From: Pagrus major
Taxonomy: Eukaryota > Chordata > Actinopteri > Spariformes > Sparidae
Assembly: GCF_040436345.1 (NCBI RefSeq)
Contig: NC_133230.1
Location: forward strand, 15,634,197 to 15,698,196
Reading direction: 5' to 3'
DNA length: 64,000 nt
Shown here: positions 7,651 through 48,664 of the stretch, in pieces
Layout: each line of letters starts with the position of its first letter
Numbering within the stretch: the stretch's first letter is position 1
The notes under the pieces: model-generated
The model's database searches: none
The model's input: the letters and a program-made list of their open reading frames with translations, nothing else
What the model was told of the DNA's origin: nothing
Program-made: the position numbers and the translations under genes

Positions 7651-10600
7651 CGGAGGAGAGCCTTCTACTCACGTCCCGTCGGATGAATTATTCCAAAACT
7701 TTATCTCGGAGGTACGATAAACCCTCTGCAAACTTCTAAGTTTTAAAAGTGTCGTTTGCTGTCCGTACATCGGCTGGAATCGTTTACTCGCCGGTTCTCG
7801 TGTTTGTCATCTACGAGGCCTTGCAGACATGAGCATCGGCTAACGATAAGGCGCTAACATTCACTGAGATGTTTTGCGAGCAGCTTCGTCTCTCCAGTGT
7901 TATCAGGACACCGCCAAAGATCGTTTATGTTGTTCGTTTCCTTTTCTCAACCACCACACGTCGCTAAAACTAAATCACAATCGGCTAAATAGTAGTTATT
8001 CTCAAGGCGGGAGCTGTTAGCCTCATATCTAGCAGCCCTATCAGTCGCAGTGCCGTGTTAACTACGCTGTGATTCATATTATTTACAGACAGAAGAGGCC
8101 AGGCTCCCAGAAAAGTTTCAGAGCAGCTGAATGTTTCGTCACAAATCATGACTTAATCCTGGCTGTACAAATACAAGACAGAACAGCTTCAGGTGGACGT
8201 TGTAGTTTGACTTTGGTTGTATTTTTTTTTTACAGTTGTCATGGTCATATTTTTCTGACAGGTGAAGCAGATAGAGAAGAGAGACTCTGTGTTAACCTCC
8301 AAGCAGCAGATTGATAGACTGCTCAGGCCTGGCGCATCCTACTTTAATCTCAATCCCTTTGAGGTAAGTGTGCTGAGTGAAATACTGTCATGCAAAGTAT
8401 CTATTCTGTTTGTAGTTAATAATTTTGTCAGTTCATAAATGTTAAAAATATTTTTGGATCAAGTTATTGGAGCCGAGAGAGTCTGACCAACAGGCAAATA
8501 ACCCTGAGTACTGATGTAAAATGACATCAAATGGGAAAAAAAATTAACAACACACCTTGGAAATGATGAAAATGTTTGGTATCTTTAGTTTGTAAATCGT
8601 TTGTATTATTTATCAGTGAAGTAAAATTGAAATCAAATTTCTGAATGAAGTGAGAATTCTACTGTTACTGCTAGTATTTTTACTTGCATAAAGTTGCCAG
8701 AAAAGGAGACTCTACAGGTCAAAAACAGAAGAGCCCAACCATTGTTGTTTAGCTGATCTTATCAGCCGATATTGGCCTACAACAGATATCTTGGTATCAG
8801 TGTATATGTTGTCAGATATGGGCTGATATGAAAACTTTTGTTTCACACAATATGATGCAGAAAAAGATATCTGGGGTAATTTGAAATGATTAAATGCCCA
8901 GTGAAATTTACTGTTACAGTGCACCCATGTCATTTTAGACAATAAAGTTTATTGTTAAACTGTAAAATATCCTGCCTCCTTCACACGTTTGGTTGTCCTG
9001 TTTGAGGGATCATTGCAAAAAAAAATTATATTGGCTTATACATCTATCAGAATTGTTTAGTTACTGATACCTGTATTGGCATCAGCCTAAAAAAACAGCA
9101 AAAGAATTATCTCATATGTTGATCTTTTGTGTGAGTTACAGTAAATAGGCTGACAAATCTGCTCATCAGAGCATGATAATGGAACCAACATTACTCCCAT
9201 AGTTATAATCGATCTCAACGTAATAATTACATTATATTGACACTTTAGTCAAGAGACTTGTGTAGAAGAAACCTACCAATGTTCACATCAATTTCAGGTG
9301 CTGCAGATTGATCCAGAAGCAACAGATGACGAGTTGAAGAAAAGATTTAGAGCGGTAAGAAAAAAAGAAAGAAAATATCCTTTTAGTGGTCTTCTCTGTG
9401 AGAGAGCCATGATGATTTATTTGTGTTTTGTTTCTTAATTCCTAATATTAAGTCTCTTTAACTTTGCAGTTGTCCATTTTGGTCCATCCAGATAAAAATC
9501 AGGATGATCCTGACAGAGCACAGAAAGCCTTTGAAGGTATATCTCTTACATCTCTGATTACATACATGCTGTAAAAAAAAATATTATTATAATATATTAA
9601 TATCATTAAACTGATGAATTCATATCATGTTGCCTAGTTTGTGATGTCATGTAGGATGTTAACAAACACAGTAAATCACAACATTCAGCTTCTTGAATCA
9701 TGTACAAGTTTAATTTCACCCGAATATCTCACTGTGTTCAAGCTGTGGACAAGGCATACAAACTCCTCCTGGAACCAGAGCAGAAGAAGAGAGCCTTAGA
9801 TGTGATCCATGCAGGAAAGGAATATGTGGAGCATAATGTGAGCGTTCAATACATTCCCTTACCTTTCAAACATTTATCAACTCCGTATTGCTCAGCTCTG
9901 TTTTGTAACATGTTTTTTTCTGCCATTCTGGTCTTCCAACAGGTAAAGGAGAAAAAGAAACAGTTGAAGAAGGATGGGAAACTATTGGATGTAGAAGAGG
10001 ATGACCCTGAAATGGTACGTCAGAGTCATAGAAACACAAACTGGGATGGGTGTTGAATATAGAATTAAAATCTGACTTTAATCAAAATTACATTAAAAGT
10101 TAATTTAAGAAGAAAGACTAAAATATTTAAAAAGGGAGGACAATGTTATGACTTGGCAGATCTAATAGCCATAGTGTCGGTCATGGTATTAACTGCTGTG
10201 TTTTGGACATCAATTGGACAATGTATTTTTATAAACTGAATTGATGCGTTGATGATCATACATCTTGTCCTTATAATGCAAATTTCCCTGTTGTGGGACT
10301 AATAAAGGATTAACTTATCTTTCCAGTTCAGGCAAGCAGTGTACAAACAGACCATGAAACTGTTTGCAGAGCTTGAAATCAAGAGGAAGGAAAGGGAAGC
10401 AAAGGACATGCATGAAAGGTAAATGACACATTGCATATTAACCTGACTTAACCCTTTTTATTTAGATGTCCAAATCAGATATAAATGGTGATATTATCTC
10501 ATCAAAATGTTATGGATTATTTCTTTCAATTTACCAGGAAAAGGGCAAGGGAGGAAGAAATCGAGCAAGCAGAGAAAGCAAAGCGAGACAGAGAATGGCA

Positions 10601-10821
10601 GAAAAACTTTGAGGTGAGTTCCTCTGTGACTGTGGTTACTACCTTGTATAAATGGAAACGTGGAAACATGACCTTTTTTCTCTTTTTTTTTTTGTCAGGA
10701 AACAAGAGATGGGCGTGTGGACAGTTGGAGGACCTTCCAGGCCAAAGGCAAGAAAAGCAAGGAGAAAAAGAACAGGTCCTTCCTCAAGCCCCCAAAAGTC
10801 AAGATGGAACAGAGGGAATGA
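7640..10821 (+). CDS. dnajc8: DnaJ homolog subfamily C member 8
   Basis: J-domain co-chaperone associated with spliceosomal and SR-protein kinase complexes in the nucleus. Nine exons: 7640-7711, 8262-8363, 9298-9354, 9470-9536, 9743-9837, 9943-10014, 10327-10418, 10538-10613 and 10699-10821. All have AG/GT borders and total 251 aa plus TGA; the human protein is 253 aa. The J domain covers about residues 57-124 and has the HPD motif at 83-85 (LVHPDKNQDD), needed to stimulate Hsp70 ATPase. A long charged helix follows (ELEIKRKEREAK, KRAREEEIEQAEKAKR). The end KPPKVKMEQRE is the same as in mammals. The start is MAAAGG, inside a Kozak- and YY1-like context. Nothing appears broken. Confidence 0.97.
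8740..9130 (+). repeat. Interspersed repeat in dnajc8 intron 2 (family member 1)
   Basis: This stretch contains repeated cagccgata/gatatc-type words and a segment around 8938-8975 (TTTATTGTTAAACTGTAAAA core). The core recurs almost identically, inverted, at about 24405-24445. The flanks also match in order, including the 'ccgatat' region. It looks like an old non-autonomous DNA element; no ends or target-site duplication could be fixed. Confidence 0.55.
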
Positions 10822-11400
10822 TGCTGTAAAATTGGACTTTATTAAACTCACTATTGTAAAAACCCCTGTTCTGTGTATCCTCACCTCATCGTCCAGTCAG
10901 CTGTGTGGCCTGCATCATCGGGACACATCCTCATCCTGACCAACGTAGTTTTGTACTTGGTTTTTCTAATGTACATATTTGTGATCTGGACCCAGAGATC
11001 CTACCTGCCTCATGTAAGAAAGGAAAATGATGCATCTTCCACGTCTGTTACTGACGAGAAAAATGTGGTTTGTCATTATTTTTGTTCTTTTTTTTTAAAA
11101 CTAAATAAAGCTTGGACTTAACAAGCCTATTGCACCAGTGTTCTGCAAAGTTGAGTCCAGGGTTTGGTAGGTGGTATCTAAAGGTACGTGGCATTTTCAC
11201 TGAGAGAACAGGGTTGTAATTATCGATCACTTAGCAAGCAAATACAGTACAGAACGGAAAATGATTCAGGGATGTCCACAGAAACATTTAAAGTCTGCAG
11301 TACAAATGCAGGTTTTGCATTTAGTGTCTCAACATCCCGTCCCTCTTAGAGCTGCATGTCTGAAATGTGTTCATTAAAATACTGTGAATAAAAACACCAA
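10822..11400 (+). other. dnajc8: dnajc8 3'UTR with two poly(A) signals
   Basis: Untranslated DNA after the stop. AATAAA signals lie at 11104-11109 and near 11386. The 3' end faces the 3' end of the next, minus-strand gene, so the two transcription units are convergent. Confidence 0.6.
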
Positions 11401-24833: not shown

Positions 24834-27800
24834 TCATGCCGATTTTGATGACTCTGTAGTACACAAGACATGGATATACAGAGACAAATTAGATATTGGG
24901 GATAACTAGAATCACTTTATGATTTTATTTGTTTAACAAATTAATTTACCGTTTACTGTGGTAGCCTTATTCCTCTGCCCAGCGTCCTTTTTCGACCCCA
25001 ACTGCGCCATCATATTCATCATGTGCTCCAAGCGATAGGAGCCTCGGTAGATCCACTCCTTATGTTTATCTCTCTATCCATGAAGACAAACTACTATGAG
25101 TAACATACTCTAAAATATACCAGGCAAAAAAACATCAAAATCCAGTTGGAAATAGTTTAAAGATCGATGATTACAACTACTGACCTGAAAAAAAACCTGT
25201 ATCAAGCTGCAGTCGACCTTCAGCACCTCACACTTCTGCTGGACTCCTCCAAATTCTGCATTGATTATCTGTCCAATCCTGTACTGCGTCTGAGGCGGGT
25301 AAGGCTGGGCCTCTAAATACGTCTTCATAAATTCCTTGTGGTTTTCATTTGGAATATCGTCCAAAGGGTCTGCCACTATCACAAGAGAAAGAAACAAAGC
25401 CTGTCACTCTGCTTACTGGCAGTATAACAGAAAGTGCAATGTACAACTGTGGTTCAACATGTAAAAATGTGGGGCTCAGATTCAATTTGGCGTCATATTT
25501 GGTCCTTTTTTATTCCTTAAAGATTCAAGACTTTATTGTCATTGTGTTAAGAAAGCCTATGTGATGAGACACAATATCATATTTTACACATTCACAGCCT
25601 TCACTTCTGGACTTCACATGAAGTAAACCCCAGACTTTCCGGGTAATTTTTTGAAAACAGCTTTCAAACTTGACCAAACGTGTCCAACTGTCAGAGCGGA
25701 CAATCTTGTATCTGTTATATTCAACACAGTTAGTGTGTCAATTAAAAAAAATCAAACTTACATGGTCTGCACACCAGGTGAAGTAAAGGTAAGCCAACAT
25801 AGACTGGCGTTTGATCATCCAAAAAGACCAGGAACCTAAAAAATGAAAAAAATGTCTGCATCAAAACATACTTTGGCTATGGCAACTGCAAAAAAAAAAG
25901 AAAGGAGGCAAAAACACTTTAATCCCATTAGATTCACAAACCTCATGCGGTTTTTCCTGTTGGGGAGCTCTGCCACAAAACCAGGACAGAACCGGGGCTC
26001 TTCACCTTTGCACTTGATAACCACACGAGTTCCGACATCCAGCTGATCCAGCTGTGGCATGAGGTCAAAGGCAATGTGGTTACCGGAGACGAGGCTTTTA
26101 CTCTTCTCCTTCTCCTCAAAACCGATCTTGTATTTCAATCTACCATTGTCTGCGAAAAAAACAAAAAAACAAAAAACCAGTTGCCCTTTTTAAACAATGT
26201 CGTATCATTACAAGGAATATGTGGTGGCTATATTCCACGAGCAGACTCATTTTCTTTTTTCAGGTACCAAAACCTGAAAAAGATAAGTGATCAAGTACAA
26301 ATAAACCGAGTCTTCTTCTCTGATACGGTTTGTATTTTTTTACTTACCCTTTGTTACCATTTCCAGGATTTTCCCCCGTTGCCAGTCCCTGCCCTTCCTT
26401 CTGGCCAGGACATTCATGTTCACGCTGATCTTTAGCAAGCTAGGAGGGTCTTTTGTCTCTGTCCTGACTGGGGTTACTCCTGTCAGCGATGAGGGAACAC
26501 AACATGTTACAAACTATGTAAAGAGTTGTTGTCAAATATTGACGCTTTGGGTTGCCGTTTGACGGAAGCCACCATCCCAAAGCGTCAGTATTCGACAACT
26601 TGGGGAGAACATTCATCAATCATTCACCTATCTTTCTCCAGAAAGTTATATAGTGTTGCTTTAATATCTAAATTGATCAACTTAAGCATATACATTTCTA
26701 GTCATACATATTTTCTTATTTCGAATTGTAAAGATTAGAAGTTGCTGATAGTGAGTGATGTCTAAACATCCACCGAACCAGACACCTTATAAACAAAACT
26801 GTCTCAGTGTGGGTAGTCCATTCAGATGGCACTTATTCCCACTTTAGGTTACAAAACATGAAACCGCAAATTGTCCGATCATTGTAAAAGGTTCACATCT
26901 TATTCTCTACAATACTGTAAGTTAGTGCCAAAAAAATGTTTTTAATGTTAGGTAGTAAAGTAGTCAGTAGACTGTCTGGCACGACACATTAAATCAGTCA
27001 ATGCTAACGCTACTAAAGCCCTCTACAGGTTCATTAATTTGTGTACAACCCAGACGTGGTTAGCTGTGGTGATAAAATAACATATTCCTTTCTCGTGTTT
27101 TTTCCCCACAATAGGAGTGATATGAAAGCAATGAAGCAAACTTTTAGCACAAATAAAGTTATTCATTCAACAAAAAACTTTTCAAGTGGTCAGGGTGTTT
27201 TTGTATGGTGTGTTTTTACGACCATTACCATTGGATTTTGCAGGCGGTGTTGATGTTTTCACCCTGTTGCTCTTAGCGTTGGTATTTGCGCTGACTTGGG
27301 GTGTTGATGTTCTTGCTGCGTTGCACTTAGCACCAGTGCTTTTAACTGCAAAGCCCTTAGCACCAGTACTTTTTGGTGTATTGCTCTTAACGTCAGAACT
27401 TTTCGCCACTATGCTCTCAGTGTCAGAACTTTTTGATGCCATGTTCTTGGCATCTGAACTTTTTGCTGCGTTGCACTTAGCACCAGTACTTTTTGCTGCA
27501 AAGCCCTTAGGACGAGTACTTTTTGTTGTGTTGCTCTTAGTGTCTGAACTTCTTGCTGCGATGCTCTTAGCGTCTGAACCTTTTGCTGCGATGCTCTTAG
27601 CGTCTGAACCTTTTGCTTTGATGCTCTTATCGTCTGAACCTTTTGCTGTGACGCCCTTAGCATCTGAACTTTTTACTGCAATGCTATTAGCATCTGAGCT
27701 TTTTGCTGCGTTCCACTTAGCACCAGTACTTTTTGTTGCGAAGCCCTTAGGACGAGTACTTCTTGGTGTGTTGCTTTTAGCGTCAGAACTTTTTGCTGCC

Positions 27801-29406
27801 ATGCTCTTAGCACCAGTATTTTCTGCTGTGTTGCTCTTAGTGCCACTATATTCTGTCAAGTTGCTCTGAGCATCAGAGCTTTTTGCTGCAATGCTTTTAG
27901 CAACAGTATACGTGCTGACTTCGGGTCTTGCAGGACTTTTAGCAGGTTCCTCATTTTCTGAATCAATTTTTCTCCTCTTGTTTGATCCAGCATTAAAACT
28001 AGAGAAAGAATAATCAGAGTAAGATGAGTCCTCCTCTGGTTCCCACTGCGAACCAGAACTCGAATCGTCAAAGCATTCATGTTCATTATTGGGATCTTGA
28101 GGCGCTGGTGGACGAAAAGAACAGCTCTTGCGTGGAGAAAGTCTAGTCAACAACACCACTGGTTGTCTCTTTAGACTGACTAATTGTCTCTTTAGATTGA
28201 CAAGTTTTTTGTCATTATCTCTCCAGAGGTTCTCACTGTCCTCAGGATTTGGTAACAGGGGAGTAGAGCAAATTGAAGGAGGAGGGCCGGGGACGCAAGT
28301 CTCAGTGTGAAGAAACTCAGGTGAGGATGGAGGTGTACTTCCTACAAAATAAAAAAAAGCACAAGTCAACTTGAAGCCTTTAAATTAAAATAAGCCCGTT
28401 TGAATGGACGAAAACAAAAGTAAATCTTGTATTTGACTTGCATCTTACCACATCCTTCTGCACTATCATCATCAGAATCTGTGTCTCTGTACTCCCACCC
28501 CAGCAAAGAGTATTGTTTCTTCACAATTTCTTCACATTCTGCCACAGAACTGAAAGACATCCACAACAAAGCCAACATGAATCAAGCCAAAAATACAAAA
28601 AAAAAAACATACATTCTTCTTTAATACAGAAAATAAAACATCTTTTACACAAGTGGCCTGGGATTTGTTTAAACCTGCTGGCTTTGGTGCATCTTGTGTA
28701 TAACGGCACACTCACACTAGGCAATTGGTACTTTGTCTCTCAAAGTTTAATGTTGTTTCACTTTTTGTTTGTTTGGAATTAGGACTTTTTTCACTGCAAA
28801 TTCTTCACCCAGGGATAGCCTGGGCTGGGAGTTGACTTGAGATAACTTAGCCCCTTTTCACACATACAGCGTGAGCCCAGGGTTATCCTAAGCCCAGGGC
28901 TATACGAATCACACTGCTCACCCTCTAAGCCCGACTTAAATATCTGTTTGAATACGCACCTAATTTGGCTAATCTTGTTCTGGAGAAGGGCCAGCAAGCC
29001 TTCGGCTAAAGTCAGGTTTAGCTCACTTTGGAATGTGACGGGATTGTGCCAGTGTGACAGCTTTCTCACATTATGTCCTTACTCCATGTCCGATGCAACA
29101 CGATATTGGAGGGCTGGGGCTAAGACTGTTCCAACAATATTTAAAACCTGCGCTACGTGCAGTATGAAAAGACCTATCGTGGTCCAAAGGGCTTTTAAAA
29201 TAAGTGAAAACAAGAGCATAGAGCAGATACAACACTCACTCATAGAGCTTCAGGAGTTGGGTAGCCTGATTCTTCCTCCTGTCCAGCAGAGATTGCAGCA
29301 GATCGCATTTCTCCACCATGTCTGAGATCAGCCTGTTCTGATTAACTTCCCCTTGGATCCACTTTTGGAGCTCCCCTTTGGTCATCTCGAGCTCATCTTC
29401 CTCCAT
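24834..29406 (-). CDS. SETDB1-derived triple-Tudor protein, copy A (no SET domain, repeat insert)
   Basis: Nine coding exons: 29406-29240, 28549-28449, 28341-27229, 26479-26348, 26149-25942, 25835-25762, 25375-25185, 25073-24950 and 24853-24834. All junctions keep phase, giving 709 aa. The N-terminus resembles the SETDB1 N-terminal helices (MEEDELEMTKGELQKWIQ) and its KDFYSKLGLQYRDS region (here IVKKQYSLLGWEYRDTDS). A VVLLTRL...RPPAPQ motif and an acidic Ser region follow. Residues about 237-446 are AKSxx pentapeptide repeats. The triple Tudor module is at about 465-690 (ARRKGRDWQRGKI, FEEKEKSKSLVSGNHIAFD, FVAELPNRKNRMRFLVFLDD, EWIYRGSYRLEHM). The protein ends ESSKSA from a 20-nt last exon. 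MBD, SET and post-SET domains are absent, and no exons for them occur before clk2. Inferred role: a chromatin reader without enzyme activity. Confidence 0.88.
26528..26599. repeat. Near-perfect 24-bp hairpin in copy A intron 3
   Basis: The arms 26528-26551 and 26576-26599 pair in 22 of 24 positions, plus one G-U and one mismatch, around a 24-nt loop. The arm contains TTGACGCTTTGGG. It could be a miRNA-like foldback or a very short foldback/MITE. No second copy was found in the window. Confidence 0.75.
27270..27900 (-). repeat. In-frame 15/30-bp coding repeat (AKSxx) in copy A exon 3
   Basis: About 40 pentapeptides in a row, of type (A/P/T)-K-(S/G)-x-x, often paired as AKSSDAKSIA. A higher-order block recurs as TRPKGFAAKSTGAKCNAA. 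The DNA period is 15 and 30 bp. The frame stays open through the whole array, which argues for selection on the protein. The array is also open on the other strand only because of its periodicity. Confidence 0.85.
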
Positions 29407-31136
29407 AATTACTGCAACACACAAGGTTTTAAATTATGCGCTAAGTTGTACAGCATGGGTCTTGTTGAGGGCTGGTACTCCATAAATTCTGATCATAAAA
29501 AGGATTTTTTTTGTTTTGTACAAAAAGGCTGCCGACATATAGAATCACAGCAGATGGATATCACCAGCTCTTGGTCAAAGTCACATGCCATTATGCCTTT
29601 GTTTTGGCGTCTTCATCAGCTCCTGCTATTGATGGCCAAAATGTAATAGTCTAGCTAATGGCCATTATCACCAAAAGTGATCAGAACAAGAGTTTTATTT
29701 TCCAATTTAAAAGGAAATTAGAATCTAATTCTGACTAGTCATAATTCCAGTTCAAGATAATAATATTATGAATTCAAGATACTGACATCGCCCTTCACAT
29801 CTTAAGTTTTGACCTGTCAGGATGATGCATCTTGAACTGGCATTATGCATGGTCAAAATGTTTAAGGTATCTCAAACTGGAATCAGGAATAATCGTAATT
29901 TGATCATCACTTGACATAAGAAATATCTCAAATTGGACATAACTTTAACTTTCATTCTGCCTTGTTAAAAGCAAAGTTAAAACGTAATTAGATATCTTTA
30001 GAGCTTTGACTAGTCTAAACTGAATTATTGGAATCTCTAACTGATTTTTAGTAGTCAGACTGAATGTAATATCTGTACTCTTTATTCTAGATCGTCAAAA
30101 TCGTAATGAAAAACTAAGAATTGTTAAAACGGATTGCCATCACAGCACGGATTCTGCTCAGCCACAGTCATTCACTTCTGTCACTCCGGATTTGACTTTG
30201 TTGTTGTGTGCCCAATTGTGATTGACGAAAGAGACACGCTACATGCACAAAAACAAAACTTTTACTTTTGCTAGAATCATCTGGTTGGCCAACTTTGGCT
30301 CTCAGGCCCCACTTTGGGGATAAAAATAATAATCCAGATTTGGAAAGTCTATGTAGCGGTTTATGGGATAGACCTGTTGCAGTATGGTCTAAATGTGGGG
30401 GGAAAATCTGTGAAATCTCCCTTTTTTTTGACGCCACATTGCCCTTTTAAATGCCTGAATATTTGTCAATCCAACTTTTTATTTGTCTTTTCAAAAAGAT
30501 TTTTAAATTCCATTATTCATTTATGAATTCATTAATGCATTTTTAAATGATGTACTGTTTAATGTTGTTTTTGTAAATCAATTTTTAATTTGAACTTATT
30601 GTTAAAATATCAAATAATGAATTACCCTTGCAATTTACACTATTTACTAATAGATTAATACTTTAATTCTTAAACTAATTTATTAATGCCCGTATTTATT
30701 GTACAATTAGTTCAATGCTTTAATCACTATTTATTTGACACTTGTGGTCCTCCATACATAACCAGGACAGTAAACGCACCATCATCAGTCAACGTTACTT
30801 CCTCTGAGCAACGGATCCTCGCGGGGTCACGTCACAAAAATGAGAGATGTTCCTAAATGTGGTTGATACCTGATCCTGGCTACACGAACAGCTTCAACGA
30901 AAAACAACAATAGATTTTATTAAGGCACCTTTTAAATAAAAGGTATCGACGCGAATCAGCAGGCTTTCCTGAACACCCGCTCAGAAAACTTCAATATGGA
31001 CATCACCATGACGGCTTTGTGCTGCTCTTTATCGGTGGTGGTGGAGAACAACATCCGAAATATGAGTGTCAAACTCAAACGTTGTTCCTCATTAAGCATT
31101 TCTCTTGTAAAAGTTGAGTATTAAGTCAGCAAATAC

Positions 31137-31270
31137 CTTCACTAAGGGATAAAAACTTCCCTGTTGGAGTTTCCGAGCGATTGTGCTGCTGCGTCTTCTT
31201 CGCCTGATTCCGCTGCGCCAGATGGCGAGATGCTCACTACTGCCCCCCTGCGTCCATTCAAACCATGGAT
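31137..31270 (-). other. Probable untranslated exon 1 and promoter of copy A
   Basis: A donor (GTGAAG/GTATTT) at 31137 closes a GC-richer segment upstream of the coding start. The next exon begins just before the start codon at 29406. The likely promoter lies between 31200 and 31300. No TATA box is obvious. Confidence 0.45.
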
Positions 31271-31445
31271 GTATCAACTACCACCATGAGTCCACTGTTT
31301 ATTAGACACGTTTTATTAAAACTACGTTTAGACAAAGACCAGCAAGTCTTTTTTTAATTACCTTGATTGTTTTCAAACAATACATTTTCTTATTCTATAC
31401 ATACACAGAAACAAAAGAAATAGATAGTTCCATGACAGAAATATT

Positions 31446-31829
31446 AAAGTGGCACTATGTAGTTTTGAAGGAGATTGATGCTAACAGTATTTATAAAAGG
31501 TAATAATACAAAATCAGACATATTTATTCTTAACTGAATAAACAAGCTGTAATAATAAGTAATAATAAGTCTCACAGGAAAATAACGTCCCCAGAACGCT
31601 GTTTGAAGCTACAAAAGGTGGCAGAGTCCGCCAAATATAAACAAAATAAAGTAAAACAGTATGAAATCGTGTTTTCCTTTAAGGTCAGTTTTTTATTTAG
31701 TTTATTCAGTCATGAAAGCAAAGAGAGTTTGTTTTGAGTTTGAAATTTTTTATTTTTTTTTTCCAAATCAGTCAATCTCTCTGATCCGATTAAATTTTCC
31801 TCCTCGAAACTTCATCATGCACCTTTAAA
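31446..31829. mobile_element. MITE-like non-autonomous DNA element (copy 1)
   Basis: Starts AAAGTGGCACTATGTAGTTT and ends with a degenerate inverted version (...CATGCACCTTTAAA). The interior (aaaggtggcagagtccgcc, taaagtaaaacagtatgaaa) matches, in inverted orientation, the element at 59688-60006. No coding capacity was seen. Confidence 0.65.
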
Positions 31830-33300
31830 CTAACCAATTTAACACACAGTACTCAAATTACTTAGGTATATTGGGATATGGGTGCATATATATGCAATAA
31901 AGAGTCAAATGAAATGTTGTTTTCAAGGCCGGAATTATTTTTGGGGACCAAAAATATCAACAAAACACAAAATAAAAACTCAGACGTCACAAAATAAACA
32001 TATCCCAATATTCCTAACTAATTTTGAGCAGTGTACATATGAACCACACAAATGGTTTTCTTAAATCAGGTTTAATACTGAAGAGTTTGCATAAATTAAT
32101 CATTTTGGTTCATTCTTATGACAGGTTGTTAATTGTGCCAGCACTGAAAGATATATGCCAATATCAGTGCGTTTGTACAAAAGTAATATAACAAGAATTA
32201 TACTGAGAAATTGAATGATGTATTTTTCACTTTGTAGAAACTACAATTGTTAAATTATATTGATAATAATAACAGATCATGCTACTGAAGTAAACATTTC
32301 ATTCCCAAAATACGACTTATTTGATCATTTCAATGTATGATTTTGAATATATATTATTACTGTATATATTCTGTTAGAGACAGAGATATAACTTCCTTCT
32401 TGACCTTGTTTGGCTTAGTTATTTATTTATTTATTTTCAAAATAAAAGTCTGTCTAAACAACGCAGGACAAGACAGGTGGCTGGGTATTCGCATAGCATT
32501 CTGGGTAGTGGTCGATTCGCTATGATTTAGGATCACATCTCTTTTGTTTACATACATTTTGCTTACAACCACGAGCACACAGCAACAGCCAACACAAATA
32601 AACAGAAAAGCTGATACTACTCGACTCTGAACAAAAGTAAAGACATAAACTTTAATGAAATGGAAGAACTGGCTGCCACTGCATGTTGTGTCCACATGCT
32701 TTGTTCATCTGTAGCTCCTTTTCATGCATATTTAATTGTCTCGACAGGAATCTAACCCAAGTTAGTTGCTCACCTGTGCTTTTCGTTTTGAAAAATAAAC
32801 GAAGGTCAAGTTGTTTCCCTGTGCTTTTAGACGCCATTCTGGCCTGCGGTGCTGCGTTCACTGCTCTGACCTCCTCGTCCCGTCTTCCTCAGCCACTTTC
32901 CAGATCGGATCGGATCCCGCCCCCTCCCACTTTTGACTGTGGGTCCACGGCCCCCTCCCCTCTGTCAGCACACGAAGGTGTGGAAGCACATGCCCGCCAG
33001 GTAAAGAAGAAAACATTAGATGAAAACTAAGCTTCATGGAAACATATTTCGTTGGTGAATCAAAAAAAAAATATTACTGGCTGTCATTTGGATTTGTTCA
33101 TCCCTACCCACATTTGATCAATCATGTGACCAATCAACACACATGATCATGTGAGTAACTGTAAGAAGAGTAAGGCTTTCCAGAAACCTGGCTTTGTTGA
33201 AGCTGCTGATGGCAATAAAACCTAATTACATTTAACTCTGAAGACTATTTGAGTTTATTTGCATCCATGAATCATGTGGTTATGTCTGAACCCATCTGGC
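31830..33300. other. Intergenic DNA between copies A and B
   Basis: Mostly AT-rich and without a gene. Around 32480-32510 a GCATTCTGGGTAGT word resembles the ZNF143-type promoter motif. At 32830-32655 a short minus-strand frame starts MASKSTGKQLDLRLFFK after a GC-rich patch (32850-32960). It could be a decayed first exon, possibly transposon-derived, but nothing downstream supports a gene. Confidence 0.35.
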
Positions 33301-33777
33301 TTAGTGAAGATTTCTTAACAAGTTACAGGCAACTGCACTGTGGTGCACTGAGTGAAGTGTTGGGCATTTGTGACAACCAGAACAAAAGACCAAGTTGAAC
33401 AAGATTGAGAAATCACATTTTTATGGAAAAGAGACTGAAACTTGCAAATGACAAGCTGATATACAATTTAAAATATCTTTTACTTTTATTGACAGAGTGC
33501 TGTACAGAGAAATGAAATAAATGGATATCAAACTATAGAGTAAAATAGTAATTTTTTAATAATTGCTGTGCTAAATGATAATCAAGTGTGAAGAAATCAT
33601 GACAGATGGTTGAAATATGTTATTCCGCACCAGTTGACTGAATGTGCACCCATCATCTGAATCACTGTAACGATGAATATAAGGAGGGCACTCTGTATTC
33701 AAGAGTTAGATCATTTTTCATAGGCTTTGGTCTGTGCGTGATCTCGTGTTTTGCTGTCTGCAATAAAACTGTTTTTA

Positions 33778-33837
33778 CATATATATATATATATACATAT
33801 ACATATGTACATATACATATACCAACACACACACACG
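33778..33837. repeat. AT/AC microsatellite
   Basis: A run of TA dinucleotides, then tacatata variants, then (AC)n. It lies in the 3' flank of copy B. Confidence 0.8.
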
Positions 33838-34468
33838 CAGGAGTTTGTCAATCATATCACATCAATTACGTAAGGAGAAACTTAACTGATGTATTCTCTC
33901 CGATCTCAAACATGCACAAACTAGATTTGAAAGTAACAAACACCCAACAGGATATTATAAAGATTATTGTACCTGAGGGTCAACCATCTCACGTGATCTC
34001 AGTAGGAATCAGATGTAAAAACAAAAAAAGGACACTTAAGTGATGCAACAACTTGCTGGAGTAATGCTTTGCAGTGACAAAAAACAAAAACTTCTTATCT
34101 TCTTCTTATCAACAGCTGTGCTTCTGTTGCATGGCACACCCTCGGCTGCTCCAGTACTTACGTTAGCTTTCGTTTCCTTGGAGACCTGCTTCTCATCAGC
34201 TATTGTGGTCCCGCTCAAAAGTAGTGATGTAATCATGCAGATTTTAAATCCCAAATATCAAACATTTTTTCACTTATTGAGGCGGCCCTGATGAGTCTGT
34301 GAACAGTGCAGGAGGTTTAAGACTGGATCTGTAAGCTTGTTACATCACCAGATAACCTGGGCCGAACATCGGTACTGATCGAGGTCCAAGATTAGACTTG
34401 TCTTGCAATTGTTAGGAGGGTGAATAGGGGATAAATCGTCCACAAACTCCTGGAGTCTGAGCTCAGCT

Positions 34469-36788
34469 TTACTCAGAAGCATCTTTGCGCTCTTTCGCTT
34501 CTTTCAGTTCCAAAAATCTTGCCATGTGTTGAAGTCGTATGGAGCCTCGATGGATCCACTCTTTGTGTTGATTATCCTGAGAGTGACAACAAAATCAACA
34601 TTACACCAAAGAAATCAGGAATAGAACATCAGTAACAGCGGTGTTAAATGATGCTCACCTGAAAAACGACCAGTATCAAGCTGCTGTCAACCTCTTCCAC
34701 CTGACACTTCTGCTGGACTCCATCAAACTCTGCATACAGGCTCTGTCCAGCGCTGTACTGAGTTAAATGTGGGTACGGCCAGTCCTTCAGGTACTTATTC
34801 ATGAAAGATTTGTGAGCACCGTCTGGAAGGTCGTCTATAACACTTTCCACTGTCAAAAAACACAGAAAGAGTCTGTTACTCTTTTTACTGAAATGTCTGG
34901 CAGTACCTGTACTCTCATAGCTCACATAGTTAATTCATCATAATGTTTCACATTAAAAGATTCCCAGCAGCTCAACAGGCATAATCCCCCTTATCATGAA
35001 AGTTTCAAATGTTAAACATCTGGGGGAATTACTGAATGTACAGTATCTTTGTCAGAGCAACAGAATGGTGAGTTTGAAACGACTATTTTCTTGTAATGAT
35101 GGATTTTGTGCTGTGGACAGTTTACATTTCACTGAATTAATCAAGACATCAAGTAAACATGGAGGACATGTTAAGTTCCCATTAACAGCTAAAACAGCAA
35201 ATTAACACTTTTTGACTTTTAACATGGAAGTGTCTGACCAAAATTTGATTACATAAAAAATATCTCAGAGGAAGAGGAAAAATAATAGAAATAAAATAAA
35301 GAAAAGTACCAAAACAGCCAAACTTACATGGTTTGCACACCAGGTGAAAAGCAGGTAAACCAACATAAACCGGCACATGATCATCTTGAAAGACCAAGAA
35401 CCTGTCAAATTAAAATATGTCTTATGTCAAATCACAGCTTTACTAAAGCATTTGGGTTTCCTGTCAGAAATTGTGTGGTATTATTTTCTTCTAAAAATGC
35501 CAAAAACGATGCCTGTTCATAGATGAAGGGATAAACACTGATTCACACACAAACCTTAAGCGGTTCTTTCTGCTGGGCAGCTCTGCCATAATACCAGGCC
35601 GGAACACGTTGCTCTGTTCGTGACACGCGACCACCACACGAGCACCGACATACAGCTGCTCCAGCTTTGGTGTGGTGTTGTAGGCAATGTGGTGGCCAGA
35701 CACAAGGCTCCTCCCCTTTTCTTCAAAATTTACTTTGTACTTCAACCGTCCATCTTCTGCAAGAGTGAAATAAGTAGAATCACCATTGTGTCATTTTTTG
35801 CTTCACTGTGGTTTGAAATAAATTACAGAAGTAAAAACATTGTTTTCCCTAGATGTACACTGTAGTTTCTGCATGTCAGGGATATCTATCAATCTATTTA
35901 TCTATCTATACCCACATATATACATATATATAAATTATATAGTGCTGCAGCTAACAATTAGTTTTGATAACGATTAAGCTGTCAATGACATTTTTGATGA
36001 ATAAATGATCATTGAGTCTGTAAAATGTCTCAAAATAGTAAAAATTGCATCTTTAAAAAGAAAAGTTTCGTTGGACCAAGAATTAATGAATTGAGCTATC
36101 ATTTCAGCCTAAATGATTATACTGTAGTGTTTTCAAAAAGTACAATTTTCTTTGTACAAAGTATGACTAATTAACTTTTTTCCAACATTCGCGTTAGTGG
36201 TTTATTTAGCTATATTTCAGTAAAATCCAAGTGTTGGGTACACACTGAGTGATGTTTTAAAATGTTGCGATCAATTTCCTGCCAAAATGTCTTACCCCTT
36301 GTTAATATCTCCACTATTTTTCCCCGTTGCCATCTCATGGGCTTCCGCCTCGCTAGGACCATCATGTCCACTTTGACTTCTTCCTCTGGCAAGCTGGGAC
36401 GGGTCTTCGTGGTTTCATTCGAGACATAAGAAAAAGCTGAGGATATTATTACAGGGGCTGGTTCTGTCACCTTCTTGTCCTTTTTTTGACTCGTTTTTGC
36501 TGTAGGTGTTCTTTTTGCCTCACTCTTGGTGGGTTTGCCAGTTTTCCATTCATCCTTTGAAACTGAGAAATCAGAATCACTTGAACCAGCCTCTGGCTCC
36601 CATTGCATATCCGAATCAGAGCCGCTGCGGGAGTCAACTTCACTGTAGAACTGCTGAGGCGTTGGTGGTCGCAGAGCGCTGACTTTATATTCAGGGAGTC
36701 TGGTCAAGACCACCACTGCCTTCCTCATCACTTTCTTGTTCGGAGGTTCATTTGTAGAAGGAACAGACTTACACTTGGGACCAGACAT
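34469..36788 (-). CDS. SETDB1-derived triple-Tudor protein, copy B (no SET domain)
   Basis: Five coding exons: 36788-36296, 35756-35555, 35401-35328, 34849-34659 and 34576-34469. They give 355 aa and a TAA stop. The start MSGPKCKSVPSTNEPP comes right after an acceptor. Residues about 30-90 carry AVVVLTRLPEYKVSALRPP and SDSDMQWEPEAGSSDSDFS. A Lys-rich linker follows, then the triple Tudor module from about 140 (MVLARRKPMRWQRGKIVEIL, FEEKGRSLVSGHHIAYN, MAELPSRKNRLRFLVFQDD, EWIHRGSIRLQHM). The protein ends KERKDASE. It lacks the N-terminal SETDB1-like helix found in copy A, and has no MBD or SET domain. The first coding exon used by copy C was not found here, and the two middle exons of copy C are a single exon here. 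Family assignment is firm; the reader function is inferred. Confidence 0.88.
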
Positions 36789-37365
36789 ATTTTCTGTGAA
36801 GAAAGAAGCATTGTTGAAATTGTGGCCTGCAACAAACAAAAAAACCTACAGCGGAGATTATTGTGCACGACTCGAAAATGAATTGGCAACAATTTTGATA
36901 AATGAAGAACGGTAGGGCTGCACTATATGGTAAAAAAAACAAAACTGGACTTAGGGACCATCAATAAATTACCCTTTTGTATGTTTGATTTTTCTTCATG
37001 CTGACTCAATGATATTAGTGAAAATTCTGATTAAAAATAAAAATACTAAACTGATTTCATGTTGCACAACTATTTTGATTGCTAATGTGTTATGTATTTA
37101 TTTTGCAAAAATATTTTTATAGCGACCATAGGTAGGTCTATAGGTACAAAAGGTAGCTAATCGTCAAGATGAGAATCTTGAACAATTTTATCTTTTAAAG
37201 GCATTCAGCAGACACTGTTGCGTGAAGACAAGAGGAGCTTTGATGTGTTTTGACTCACCTGATCTAATGTGTTAGGCAAGTGAGCTAAAAATCTTAAAAC
37301 TTCAATGACAGCTAAAATCTTTGCGTTACTTATCATAGCTTTTTGTACCAAAACGGACATCTTAC

Positions 37366-37760
37366 CTGTTGTGCCCTGATTATCCGCTTCAAAATGAAAA
37401 AAACTCTGCTCACAGCACAACGTAAGTGTAGCTAACTATCCAGTGTGTCTTGGCAGAAGCTAGCTATCAGCGGTGGCACCGCTAGCTAGCTAGCTGGCAC
37501 TGAAAAAACAACAGGTTTAAGAGGAACACAGATGAACCGTCGTCTTGAGTTTGTGCCACTGCTGTAACGTTATGCAAATTATTCAAAATGACTCGCAATT
37601 TTTCCCTGCTACAGATGTGTATTGAACAAGATTAGCGCAAACACAGCTCCATGTTGGGCTTGTGTTATGCTTGTGTCTTCTTCTCCTGTTGCATGCGCTG
37701 CTTCTTCTTCGTGTTATTAATGGCGGTCATGGAACAACAAAATGTCGCATCACCGCCACC
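37366..37760 (-). promoter_or_regulatory. Promoter and untranslated exon 1 of copy B
   Basis: A donor (CACAACAG/GTAAGA) at 37366 ends an exon whose last part (GAAGCGGATAATCAGG) is the same as in copy C. The upstream sequence to about 37760 is also shared with copy C, so the promoter was duplicated with the gene. A repeated TAGC stretch lies at 37480-37494. Confidence 0.55.
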
Positions 37761-38650
37761 TGCTGGTATGGAGTACGAATCGGTGTTATAAACAAAGAGA
37801 TTTTCTCACCCAGGACGATGCATATATAGTGTATTATTACAGCTCTTCTGTCATGTATGTTTCCTTGAAGTACACACTGGTTCTACTAGCTTTGCTTGAA
37901 GCTATAAAGTCCAGTCACCAACCTATTTCCATACTAACTGAGCAAGACAATCAATTTTACATCTGAATTTCAGTGAGTTGAAACCATAAACATTTACTGT
38001 TTAGTTACAGGCAATTGCATAGTCAAGCTACAATGAGTCAAGACTTGGACATGTTGGGACACACAGCAAAAAAGAAGAGAAAGTTGACCAGAATTGAGAA
38101 ATCATTTATTTCAATACATCTCTAGAAATTAGGCTGACACTGACACATGATTAGCTTATATACAGTGCAATGTAAAAACATATTTTACTTCTATTACTTA
38201 CAAAATGAAACAAAAGAAGGACAAATATAATACTATACAAAGCATTTCAAATATTGTGGAAAATTGAGATCTGCAAAACAACTAAGGAAAAGACAGATGT
38301 GAGTTGTGGGATTTTCTGTAATAAAGTGAGTTAAACAAAAGTAGTGGTCTTTCAGTTTTGATACAGACTTGTCTCATAAGTCAAAGACCAAAGAACAGTT
38401 TACGCTCAAACCTGTATAGACAGATTTTGAGTCAAGACTTGTTAATGTCCTGCCTCCTGCATACAGTCTTTCCACTACTTTCATTAATGGTTTGCACAAC
38501 TCTAAAGCGAAGGTCAGGCTATCGAGACAACTAGTCGTGACAGTGCAGAAAAATAAGTGTCTGTGAGAGCGAGAAGTGAAACACCAAAGCGAGTCTCATG
38601 CCGGCAGCTTAAAAAAAGACAATTTGTACTTGATGTTCGCAGTCTAGTCG

Positions 38651-38656
38651 TTTATT
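38651..38656 (-). terminator. Poly(A) signal for copy C
   Basis: A minus-strand AATAAA lies about 165 nt beyond the stop. Confidence 0.5.
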
Positions 38657-38817
38657 ACATCCCACGCAGAGCAAGCTGCGGCTAATTCAAAATATCACCA
38701 ACCCCTCACCGCAAGTCTTATTTAGTCCTGAAATTCTTCAGTCCATAATTCCCAAAACAATCCAACGGCACATCACTTCAAGGTAATAATGATGTGAAAA
38801 TCTGTGTCCGTGGACTT

Positions 38818-41534
38818 TTAGTCAGAGTCACTCTCGTACTCTTGCAGTGCTTTCAATTCCAAAAATCTTGACATGTGTTCAAGTCGTATGGAGCCTCGAT
38901 GGATCCACTCCCTGTGTTGATTTTCCTAAGAGTGACAAACAAGCTTCATTATAAATACAGAAATCCATTTTTTTTTTAAAAGGAAAAGAACGTCAGTAAC
39001 TGCAGCGTTAAATGTTACTGACCTGAAAAACGACCTGTATCAAGCTGCTGTCAACCACCTGCACCTCACACCTCTGCAGGACTCCATTTAATTCTGCATT
39101 AAGGCTCTGTCCCGCGATGTAATGGGTTAAATGTGGGTATGGCCAGTCCCTCAGGTACTGACTCATAAAAGAGCTGTGACGGGTGTTTGCAACGTCGTCC
39201 AAAACATTTTCCACTGTCAAAAAAAAAAAAACACAGAGAAAGAATGTTGTTCACCAAAAAGCATCAGGTTTCAAGAAAACTACTTTTTGTCTGACGATAT
39301 ATTGTCCCAGAAATACTTGTAATACACAATATTACTGTAATTTTAAGACTATTTTACTCCACTGATATAATTATGATATATTAGCATAATAATGTGAGTA
39401 CATTCTTTTAAAAAAAAATAATAACTTTAAATTCTTAATATTCAGTCATAAGAACTGGGATGTAAAAAGATATTAAAATATCCTGTATTAGAAAAGGTAA
39501 ATTAAATAAAACCCAGCTAGTTATTCTGGCATCATGTTAGCTAAAACATTGGTAACATATGTATGTGAAAAAGAAACAAGTGTGAAAACAGCTCAACTTA
39601 CATGGTCTGCACACCAGGTGAAGTGAAGGTAAACCAACGTAAACCGGCATGTGATCATCCTGAAAGACCAAGAACCTGGAAAACGAAAAGATGTTTTACA
39701 AATTCAAAACTTTATGGAGGCATGTATTTGGATTTTCTGTAAGAAACTGTGAGATGTTATTTTATCCTAAAAATGCAAACAAAATTCTGTTGGTTCACAG
39801 ATGACGGTGGCCCTGATGAGGCAGAATTTTGCAATAGAAAACAGATGAACTATTTTACATCTTGAGAAATGAGTGAATCGTTCTTGCTCACATGACCTCC
39901 AGGTCAAGAACACACAATGTTTTACATTTTAAAGGAACACTGCTACAAGAATTCTTGCTACAAAGGGATAAATGCTCACCTTAGGCGGTTCTTTCTGCTG
40001 GGCAGCTCTGCCAAAATACCAGGCCGGAACAGGGAATTGTTGTCTTGACACTTGACTACCATGCGAGCACCGACATACAGCTGCTCCAACCTTGGTGTGG
40101 TGTCAAAGGCAATGTGGTGGCCAGACACAAGGCTCCTCCCCTTTTCTTCAAAACTAACTTTGTACTTTAATCGTCCGTCTTCTGCAAATGAAGAAATGTC
40201 AATGAGTGAAACTGGTAAAATCAACATTGCATCATTATTTGCATCAAATTGCCTTGAATGCACTTATATTACACTGAACGCAGACTTAAAGAGGTAATAT
40301 TATGCTTTTGGGGATTTTTCCTTTCCTTTATTGTGTTATGTTGCATTTTTGTGCATGTAAAGGTCTGCGAAGTGAATAAGCCCAAAGTCCATGCCAAAGG
40401 GAGCTACTCTGTCCCACAGAAAACACTGCTCCTGCACTGCCTGAAACTGTGTTACATATGATTGTGATCAATTTCCTACCCCTAAACAATTTTCTTACCT
40501 TTTGTTATCATGTCCACAATCTTTCCCCGTTGCCATCTCATGGGCCCCCTCTTCGCCAGGACAATCATGTCCACGTTGACCTCTTCTTCTGGCAAGTTAG
40601 GCCGGATCTTTGTGGTTTCACTCGAAGAATGGGAAAAAGCTGATGATACTATGACAGGGGCTGGTTCTGACACTGCGGAAAAACAAAATGTTTTCATTAA
40701 AACTAATGAGCTTGAGGGATTGGAAAATACGCATAGCTTGTCATGAGTATTTTCAGGAAAATAAACATGTATGCACCATCATAGAGGTCAAGGGAAGAAT
40801 TTTCACCCTCTGGTTCACACTGCATATCAGAATCAGAGCTGCTGAGAGATTCGTCTTCACTGTAGAACTGCGGAGGAGTTGGTGGTCGAAGGGCGCTGAT
40901 CTTGTAATCGGGGAGTCTGGTCAAGACCACCACCGCTTCTTTTGTTACACTGAGAGAGTCAGAACTGTCCTCCATTTGTGTTTTGTTGCTTGGAGTGGCA
41001 CTTGTGGAGGGAATGGACTCAAATTGGGACCCAGACATGTTTTCTGCAAAGAAAAAAACATTGTTGGAACTTGCAACAAACAAAAACCTTCAGCAGAGAT
41101 GATTGTGTTCTACTCGAAAATTAATCTGCAATTAATTTGCTAATGGATGAATTTGTTTAAGACATGTTTTAAGCTAAAATTCTAAATAGTTGCTGCTTAT
41201 AGCTACTAACATATATGGATTTTGAGCTTGTTTGTCCCAGAAAATCAATATAAAGTAAAGTGAATATTTTTATTTATGACTTAAGGACATCACTTTGTGT
41301 TTTTTCCACTACTTTTTTGACATTTGACAAGTACTTAATTGATAAGTCAGTTTGCCAAGAATGTACTTTTTGGATATTGAGGTTGAGCTTGAAATTACTT
41401 AAAAAACTACAATGTTTATTTTCCAGTTAACACAATTACATACACTTACCATCATCATCTCTTTCCTCTGTAGAGTCTGTCTTTCTCTTGTTGTGGACCT
41501 GAGAGATTCTCGTCTCCATCTCAGTCACCTCCAT
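38818..41534 (-). CDS. SETDB1-derived triple-Tudor protein, copy C (no SET domain)
   Basis: Seven coding exons: 41534-41450, 41043-40777, 40672-40499, 40181-39980, 39675-39602, 39213-39023 and 38925-38818. They join in frame to 366 aa. The first exon encodes MEVTEMETRISQVHNKRKTD and splices through GAT-G/AA into ENMSGSQFESIPS, so this gene starts upstream of the Met that aligns with the start of copy B. It then has AVVVLTRLPDYKISALRPP, SDSDMQCEPEGE, and the triple Tudor module from about 150 (MIVLAKRGPMRWQRGKIVDM, FEEKGRSLVSGHHIAFD, LAELPSRKNRLRFLVFQDD, EWIHRGSIRLEHM). It ends EYESDSD. The intron between exons 2 and 3 has a weak donor (GTGCAT), and copy B lacks this intron. No MBD or SET domain is present. 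Confidence 0.86.
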
Positions 41535-41819
41535 AATCCCTGCAACATAACATAAGGGTTTGAAATCCAGGAGATTTCACCCCATAACATACTGTACGAG
41601 TGGATGAGCCAGCTGTAAGGACACAGACCACCAGGTCATCATCGCATGAGAGGACCAAGATACAGAAGTGTGTTTAACGTATTGACTTATTGCTTTATTA
41701 ACATCACTTGACATAAGCTAGCTCGTTTGTACATTTTAGAAAGTTTAGTAGCTATAATTTAAAACCTGGAAACGTAGCGTTAATACTTGTACCAAGACTG
41801 ACAGCTTACCTGTTGTTGT

Positions 41820-42200
41820 GTCCTGATTATCCGCTTCAAAGCGACAAAAGTCTGCTCACCACAATGTAGCGCTCATTCAGCTACGGTCAATAATTTTTAA
41901 GCGTGTCGTCACTGAAACTAGCTGTTTGGTTAGCGGCGCTAGCCCCCACTACTAGCTCAGAAGTTAGCACTGAAAAATGCCAAAGGTTTAAGAGGCACAC
42001 AGTTAAACCGCTATCTTGTTTTGTTATCACGACTGTTACTAATTGTGCACAATTACTTGCAGTTTTGTCCTGCTACGTCTTCTACTACATTTGCATAAAC
42101 GGGTCTTCCTCCATTTTAACTTCCGGGTTTTCTTCTTCTTCTTGTCCTTTTATTGCGGTTGGCCAACATGTTGGCACATTACCGCCACCAAGTGGTGTGG
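41820..42200 (-). promoter_or_regulatory. Promoter and untranslated exon 1 of copy C
   Basis: A donor (CAACAACAG/GTAAGC) at 41820 ends an exon that shares GAAGCGGATAATCAGG with copy B. The homology to the copy B promoter continues to about 42200 (caccgccaccaagtggtgtgg region). Confidence 0.55.
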
Positions 42201-48487: not shown

Positions 48488-48566
<79 letters not shown>

Positions 48567-48664
48567 GCCACTTTCAAGATCCCGCGCTCCTGTTCTTTGG
48601 CTTTCAGGTGAGAGCCGCATGTGAGGGCCCGTCATCAGCCTCGTCTCCACCTCTCACAGTCCAA
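46900..48664 (-). other. cers2: cers2 3'UTR (long)
   Basis: Non-coding DNA follows the stop. The nearest clear minus-strand AATAAA words are near 47018 and 46902, which would give a 3'UTR of about 1.7 kb. Earlier cleavage cannot be excluded. Confidence 0.45.
48491..48565. repeat. (TG)n microsatellite, about 37 units, in cers2 3'UTR
   Basis: An uninterrupted TG run of about 75 bp. It starts about 100 nt beyond the cers2 stop codon, so the mRNA would carry a (CA)n tract. Confidence 0.95.

Follow-up and report, generated by a model that had tools for sequence, protein, structure and literature searches.

What becomes of a histone methyltransferase gene that no longer carries its catalytic half? 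The question is raised by three adjacent minus-strand genes, here called A, B, and C, at positions 24834 to 41534 of a 64,000-nucleotide stretch of the Pagrus major genome (NCBI RefSeq assembly GCF_040436345.1, contig NC_133230.1, positions 15,634,197 to 15,698,196, forward strand), which as a whole is referred to as the window. The predicted proteins carry the triple Tudor module of SETDB1 (also named KMT1E). In a preliminary description made from the sequence alone, they were presented as a reader-only array in which the catalytic half of SETDB1 had been lost before the remainder was amplified. The analysis presented here indicates that A, B, and C are real, intact, and probably functional SETDB1-derived genes that are Tudor-only. 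About an even chance is given to the explanation favored here, in which a former setdb1 locus lost its MBD-SET half, was copied in tandem, and had its methyl-lysine cages altered, its products now acting as protein-protein modules that serve as co-repressor adaptors or decoys.

Gene models and Tudor modules

Splice-aware models placed all three genes on the minus strand. Gene A (24834-29406) was predicted to encode 709 aa in nine coding exons (29406-29240, 28549-28449, 28341-27229, 26479-26348, 26149-25942, 25835-25762, 25375-25185, 25073-24950, and 24853-24834), gene B (34469-36788) to encode 355 aa in five (36788-36296, 35756-35555, 35401-35328, 34849-34659, and 34576-34469), and gene C (38818-41534) to encode 366 aa in seven (41534-41450, 41043-40777, 40672-40499, 40181-39980, 39675-39602, 39213-39023, and 38925-38818). 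GT-AG boundaries were found at all 18 introns (8, 4, and 6 in A, B, and C, respectively), the phases matched, and each frame closed with a single terminal stop. Three adjacent, complete, in-phase genes had been claimed in the preliminary description, and these independently built exon models gave identical lengths and outer ends (24834 and 41534). For exon 3 of gene A, a second GT in equal phase was seen by eye a few bases downstream of the chosen donor, and the 709-aa product follows from the chosen one. The proteins end 17 (B and C) or 29 (A) residues past a conserved RLxHM motif, as counted by hand on the models. A phase-1 intron just before the exon of the first Tudor domain (DUF5604) measured 749 bp in A and 104 bp in C and was absent from B (36296-36788).

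The Pfam families DUF5604, Tudor_5, and Tudor_4 scored above their curated cut-offs in all three proteins; in gene A, the region formed by them spans 25020-26441 (minus strand, exons 4 to 8, bounds counted by hand). Comparison of a hand-joined 249-aa piece of gene B with the Protein Data Bank (PDB) by phmmer matched the human SETDB1 triple Tudor structure (E = 3.2e-44) and Drosophila Eggless (E = 3.2e-20). Identity to the human triple Tudor region was 42% for A (87/207), 38% for B (80/209), and 37% for C (78/209), and pairwise identities were 59% (A-B), 60% (A-C), and 75% (B-C; 159/211). The proposed derivation of the array from SETDB1 was borne out by the Pfam modules in all three genes and by the PDB match of B, and the Tudor domains are predicted to retain their fold. 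Pfam DUF4819 also matched B and C (E = 0.0006 and 0.0013, respectively), but too weakly to pass its curated cut-off, and these matches were disregarded. No relative was returned when viral contigs were scanned with gene B.

Upstream of the Tudor modules, a disordered stretch looked alike by eye in all three proteins, following the pattern (A/P)VV(V/L)LTRL...RPP(T/A)P...Q(W/C)EPE (minus strand, approximately 28005-28165 in A, 36570-36725 in B, and 40804-40940 in C). The VVVL within this stretch might be a SUMO-interacting motif.

Absence of the catalytic half from the window

Among the features of a SETDB1 methyltransferase, the triple Tudor module was found in all three genes, and neither the MBD (best E = 0.34) nor a bifurcated SET domain with pre-SET and post-SET parts was found in the window. 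The full-length query was a hand-typed human SETDB1 sequence (1291 aa), which also served for the N-terminal and K1170 comparisons below. In a tblastn search of the 64-kb window with this query, all rows beyond the Tudor region and residues 88 to 117 had E values of at least 0.13. When pieces of the query were searched separately, the best E values were 0.34 (MBD), 0.042 (pre-SET), 0.73 (SET-N), and 0.070 (SET-C), at positions scattered in the window, and the Tudor control in the same piecewise search reached 7e-17. The earlier statement that no MBD, pre-SET, or SET exon lies between or after the genes therefore held for the 64-kb window, in which none was detectable (best E = 0.042). As for the claim that the catalytic half was lost and the remainder then amplified, both the absence from the window and a tandem amplification with intact frames were upheld, and the order of the two events is the simplest reading of them.

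It was considered very improbable that gene A forms only the 5' end of a larger gene, with catalytic exons elsewhere, and stands apart through an effect of assembly or annotation. The view is limited to 64 kb, which leaves room for such exons, but no catalytic exon was found in those 64 kb at E < 0.04, and the stop of gene A lies approximately 2.7 kb ahead of the first coding exon of a CLK2-like gene on the same strand (that exon, near 22.1 kb, was placed by eye). Moreover, the last exon of B and that of C are both 108 bp long, and the third Tudor domain is completed in each of them.

Histone-reading pockets

The 14 residues of the K9me/K14ac pockets and their human numbering were taken from PMC5727127. 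Five of these residues were retained in A and three each in B and C. None of the five cage residues of the second Tudor domain (TD2) was kept in any of the proteins, the replacements being, in the order A/B/C, Y268C, W275F, Y277C/R/R, F297L/Q/Q, and Y301T/V/M. In the cage of the third Tudor domain (TD3), of which A retained two of four residues and B and C one, F379 was kept and D382 was D/N/N, and both tryptophans were replaced in all three proteins (W358 by F/F/L and W363 by Q). Retention at the K14ac site was three of five in A and two of five in B and C: F296 and F332 were kept, G300 was replaced by Q/H/H and A302 by P, and position 389 (Y in human) was Y/H/H. R384 was replaced by H in all three proteins, and I388 and R394 were retained in all three. 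Nine pocket positions differed from the human residue in A, B, and C alike, and four of these (268, 275, 302, and 363) shared one new residue, so the changes at these positions probably predate the amplification.

In the human protein, the substitution W358A abolished binding of K9me1/K14ac and cut binding of K9me2/K14ac 18-fold, and Y268A lowered binding of K9me3/K14ac (PMC5727127). With their methyl-lysine cages altered, A, B, and C most probably do not recognize H3K9me/K14ac in the manner of SETDB1, and the label of a reader-only module was not sustained. It is doubtful that the products are H3K9me/K14ac-binding proteins that compete with SETDB1 at chromatin or recruit it there. Conservation of the triple Tudor modules and retention, in all three proteins, of R394 and of F332 and F296 of the K14ac site are consistent with such binding, but the loss of the entire TD2 cage and of both TD3 tryptophans in every copy, at positions that include those at which substitution impairs the human protein, argues against it.

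The clefts may instead have been remodeled to bind another ligand, either a protein segment or another mark, so that the genes would encode neofunctionalized Tudor proteins; this was regarded as a minority possibility. The identity of four of the nine changed positions among A, B, and C, despite synonymous divergence (dS) of 0.73 to 0.86 between A and B/C, is in keeping with it, as is purifying selection (see below). However, common ancestry alone also explains the shared residues, and the Tudor regions agree at 59 to 75% of positions pairwise anyway.

Selection and duplication history

A codon model with three branches and 209 Tudor codons gave a ratio of nonsynonymous to synonymous substitution (dN/dS, or omega) of 0.54, which was significantly different from 1 (twice the log-likelihood difference [2dlnL] = 13.35, P = 0.00026). 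Separate omegas for the branches (0.43 for A, 0.52 for B, and 1.28 for C) did not fit significantly better than one ratio (2dlnL = 2.82, P = 0.24). Pairwise NG86 omegas in the Tudor region were 0.34 (A-B), 0.38 (A-C), and 0.48 (B-C), and that for 92 N-terminal codons of B and C was 0.31. In a neutral simulation of substitutions without selection or indels, in which B and C were each run at half of the B-C dS, no stop arose in the frame of B in 30 of 3,000 runs and in that of C in 16 of 3,000; for A, this was the case in 0 of 3,000 runs at a distance of 0.2 and 0 of 3,000 at 0.4.

Purifying selection on the Tudor parts makes old pseudogenes unlikely. The preliminary description had named a dN/dS near 1, together with lack of expression in any species, as a sign against its reading, and what was found in the Tudor codons was a ratio below 1, with intact frames. 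Long-dead pseudogenes are thus unlikely, and recent death is possible. Little credence was given overall to decaying duplicates or recent, functionless pseudogenes: the omega of the C branch (not significant), the missing or shortened N-terminal exons of B and C, and the absence of one intron from B would suit such decay, but the open reading frames (ORFs) and splice sites are intact, the overall omega is below 1, and frames seldom stayed open in the neutral simulations.

Between B and C, dS was 0.27 in the Tudor exons versus 0.74 in the 92 alignable N-terminal codons (34469-41043), a difference that gene conversion in the 3' half could explain, as could faulty alignment of the disordered sequence. 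Similarity between these two genes extended into their flanks. The region upstream of C (41787-42076, minus strand) matched that upstream of B (37343-37612, minus strand) by blastn, with 66% identity over 301 columns (E = 1.1e-17), and the 3' flank of C (38003-38195, minus strand) matched that of B (33321-33490, minus strand) with 68% identity over 193 columns (E = 6.6e-12). Because B and C share both upstream and 3' flanking sequence, a tandem duplication that took in the whole gene is their probable origin. The region upstream of C perhaps comprises a 5' untranslated exon and a promoter, the exon having been recognized by eye from a GT after cacaacaacag.

N-terminal region and repeat array of gene A

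The first two exons of gene A (28449-29406, minus strand) encode a region homologous to about residues 31 to 117 of the human SETDB1 sequence, as judged by local alignment (score of 108, equaled in 0 of 2,000 shuffles) and by tblastn, in which human residues 88 to 117 matched gene A with 50% identity (E = 2.6e-4). When the 60 N-terminal residues of B or C were aligned instead, the scores, taken without shuffles, were 22 and 29, and no clear counterpart of the gene A N terminus was recognized in them. A search of NCBIfam gave no match in the N terminus of gene A or in two neighboring pieces. In mammals, this region of SETDB1 binds ATF7IP and carries nuclear export signal (NES) motifs. The SETDB1 N terminus is described as binding two copies of ATF7IP via coils that include its NES motifs (PMC12167477).

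Exon 3 of gene A contains a coding minisatellite (27313-27901, minus strand), for which Tandem Repeats Finder reported a 30-bp unit in 19.6 copies with a higher-order period of 150 bp. The Lys/Ser-rich unit of 10 aa, approximately (D/G)AKS(N/I)AAKS(S/T), places a lysine at about every fifth residue. AxKS occurs at nine sites, KSTGAK at four, and GFAxKST three times. The ratio of nonsynonymous to synonymous differences between units (pN/pS) was 0.82 among 18 units once the two at the start of the array, which are more degenerate, had been excluded, and pN was lowest at the two lysine columns. The array resembles residues 7 to 14 of histone H3 and the K1170 site of SETDB1, a similarity that was borderline relative to shuffles. 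GFAxKST also stands around K1170 in the human SETDB1 sequence. An origin of the array from the K1170 segment was tried as a candidate and not adopted, being suggestive only: the gapped score was matched by 274 of 5,000 shuffles of the human segment and by 302 of 5,000 shuffles of the array. The ungapped score of that segment was reached in 17 of 1,000 shuffles, the motif GFA.KST appeared in 438 of 5,000 column shuffles, and the score of the H3 tail against the array was reached in 203 of 5,000 shuffles.

H3K9-like sequences have been described in SETDB1 (K1170), ATF7IP (K16), G9a, and GLP, where they are bound in trimethylated form by the chromodomain of MPP8; every bound peptide has Ala at -2, Ser/Thr stands at +1 in all except one, and that of SETDB1 K1170 lacks Arg at -1 (PMC7618375). 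The nine AxKS sites of the gene A array are like the SETDB1, ATF7IP, and H3 type of peptide in having Ala at -2 and Ser at +1. Like the SETDB1 peptides, they lack Arg at -1, and they are unlike the described sequences in that nine sites would occur in one protein and in that the resemblance is borderline. A reading of gene A as a multivalent histone mimic, in which an array likened to H3K9/K14 and SETDB1 K1170 is fused to an ATF7IP-binding region and nonreading Tudor domains, was considered a long shot. The array would be methylated by an H3K9 methyltransferase and would gather chromodomains of the MPP8 or HP1 type, and B and C would be its partners, with Tudor domains only. If it were true, a locus that once encoded a writer of H3K9 methylation would now supply that pathway with a decoy substrate and a scaffold.

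Genomic neighborhood

Four other genes were placed in the window. On the plus strand were an HNRNPR-like gene (321-2249; one piece versus PDB, E = 9e-32) and a gene at 9241-10936 with a Pfam DnaJ match under the cut-off, which we take to be DNAJC8-like. On the minus strand, the CLK2-like kinase gene (12 to 22 kb; one piece versus PDB CLK2, E = 1e-29) lies downstream of A, and a ceramide synthase gene (43 to 54 kb; one piece versus PDB CERS6, E = 6e-8; Pfam TLC domain) lies upstream of C. Pfam comparison of ten neighboring ORFs assigned a family in five, of which DnaJ and Pkinase were under the cut-off. A long GT/CA dinucleotide run was seen at approximately 48490-48570, within the ceramide synthase gene region. 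In the gap between A and B, at approximately 32774-32837 (minus strand), a short ORF (MASKSTGKQLDLRLFFKTKST) ends at a GT donor and looks like a first exon.

Human SETDB1 adjoins CERS2. This adjacency and the presence of a ceramide synthase gene beside the array suggest that the array probably occupies a native setdb1 position. In zebrafish, setdb1a is placed on chromosome 19 and setdb1b on chromosome 16 (PMC2200798).

Relation to SETDB1 and proposed role

The array resembles vertebrate SETDB1 in its triple Tudor modules (37 to 42% identical to human), in the N-terminal region retained by gene A, and perhaps in a neighborhood like that of human SETDB1 and CERS2; it differs in the absence of MBD, pre-SET, and SET parts from the window and in its changed pocket residues. 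A closer parallel may be found in short SETDB1 isoforms. One such isoform that holds only the Tudor domains is described as still forming a repressive SIN3/HDAC complex (PMC13108219). As listed in PMC1949830, the MBD, pre-SET, and SET domains are affected in both a human 397-aa isoform and a mouse 488-aa isoform. The human isoform is unlike the genes described here in that its Tudor part is also listed there as affected. A, B, and C share with short isoforms the lack of catalytic domains, and gene A has the same layout of an N-terminal region followed by three Tudor domains, whereas here the products come from separate tandem genes, the pockets have diverged, the N-terminal region is missing from B and C, and A has a repeat array. 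The best guess is that A, B, and C correspond, at the level of genes, to the short SETDB1 isoform already known, from which unusual changes in the pockets and, in A, an odd array of repeats set them apart.

Under the favored explanation, the product of a setdb1 locus beside a ceramide synthase gene would have lost its MBD-SET half, and tandem copying would have followed. A, B, and C would then act as noncatalytic protein-protein modules that recruit SIN3/HDAC co-repressors, as the short mammalian SETDB1 isoform does, and gene A could additionally bind ATF7IP through its N-terminal region, by which it would modulate full-length SETDB1 or compete with it; the full-length protein is presumed to be encoded by a setdb1 gene elsewhere in the genome. 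Competition with full SETDB1 is possible and would more likely take place via protein partners than via the H3 tail.

Several points weigh against this explanation. It is solely by analogy that SIN3/HDAC and ATF7IP are proposed as partners. Taken separately, the C branch had an omega above 1, although it was not significantly different from the rest. F332, F296, and F379 (with Y389 and D382 in A) remain, so that weak binding of acetyl-lysine or of another ligand is possible, to judge from the residues kept. Finally, a full-length fish paralog could already carry the pocket changes and bind histones in its own way.

In a survey of mostly open-access literature on Tudor-only SETDB1 paralogs in fish, no such array was found described; sequence databases may list these genes under SETDB1-like names. 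Mammals obtain a Tudor-only SETDB1 by splicing, and a similar layout seems to have been fixed here as three genes with remodeled pockets. If these genes are expressed, they would let noncatalytic roles of SETDB1, such as co-repressor binding and titration of ATF7IP, be studied separately from its activity as an enzyme and as a reader, and the array may help to explain how the silencing of retroelements is adjusted in fish once genes have been duplicated.

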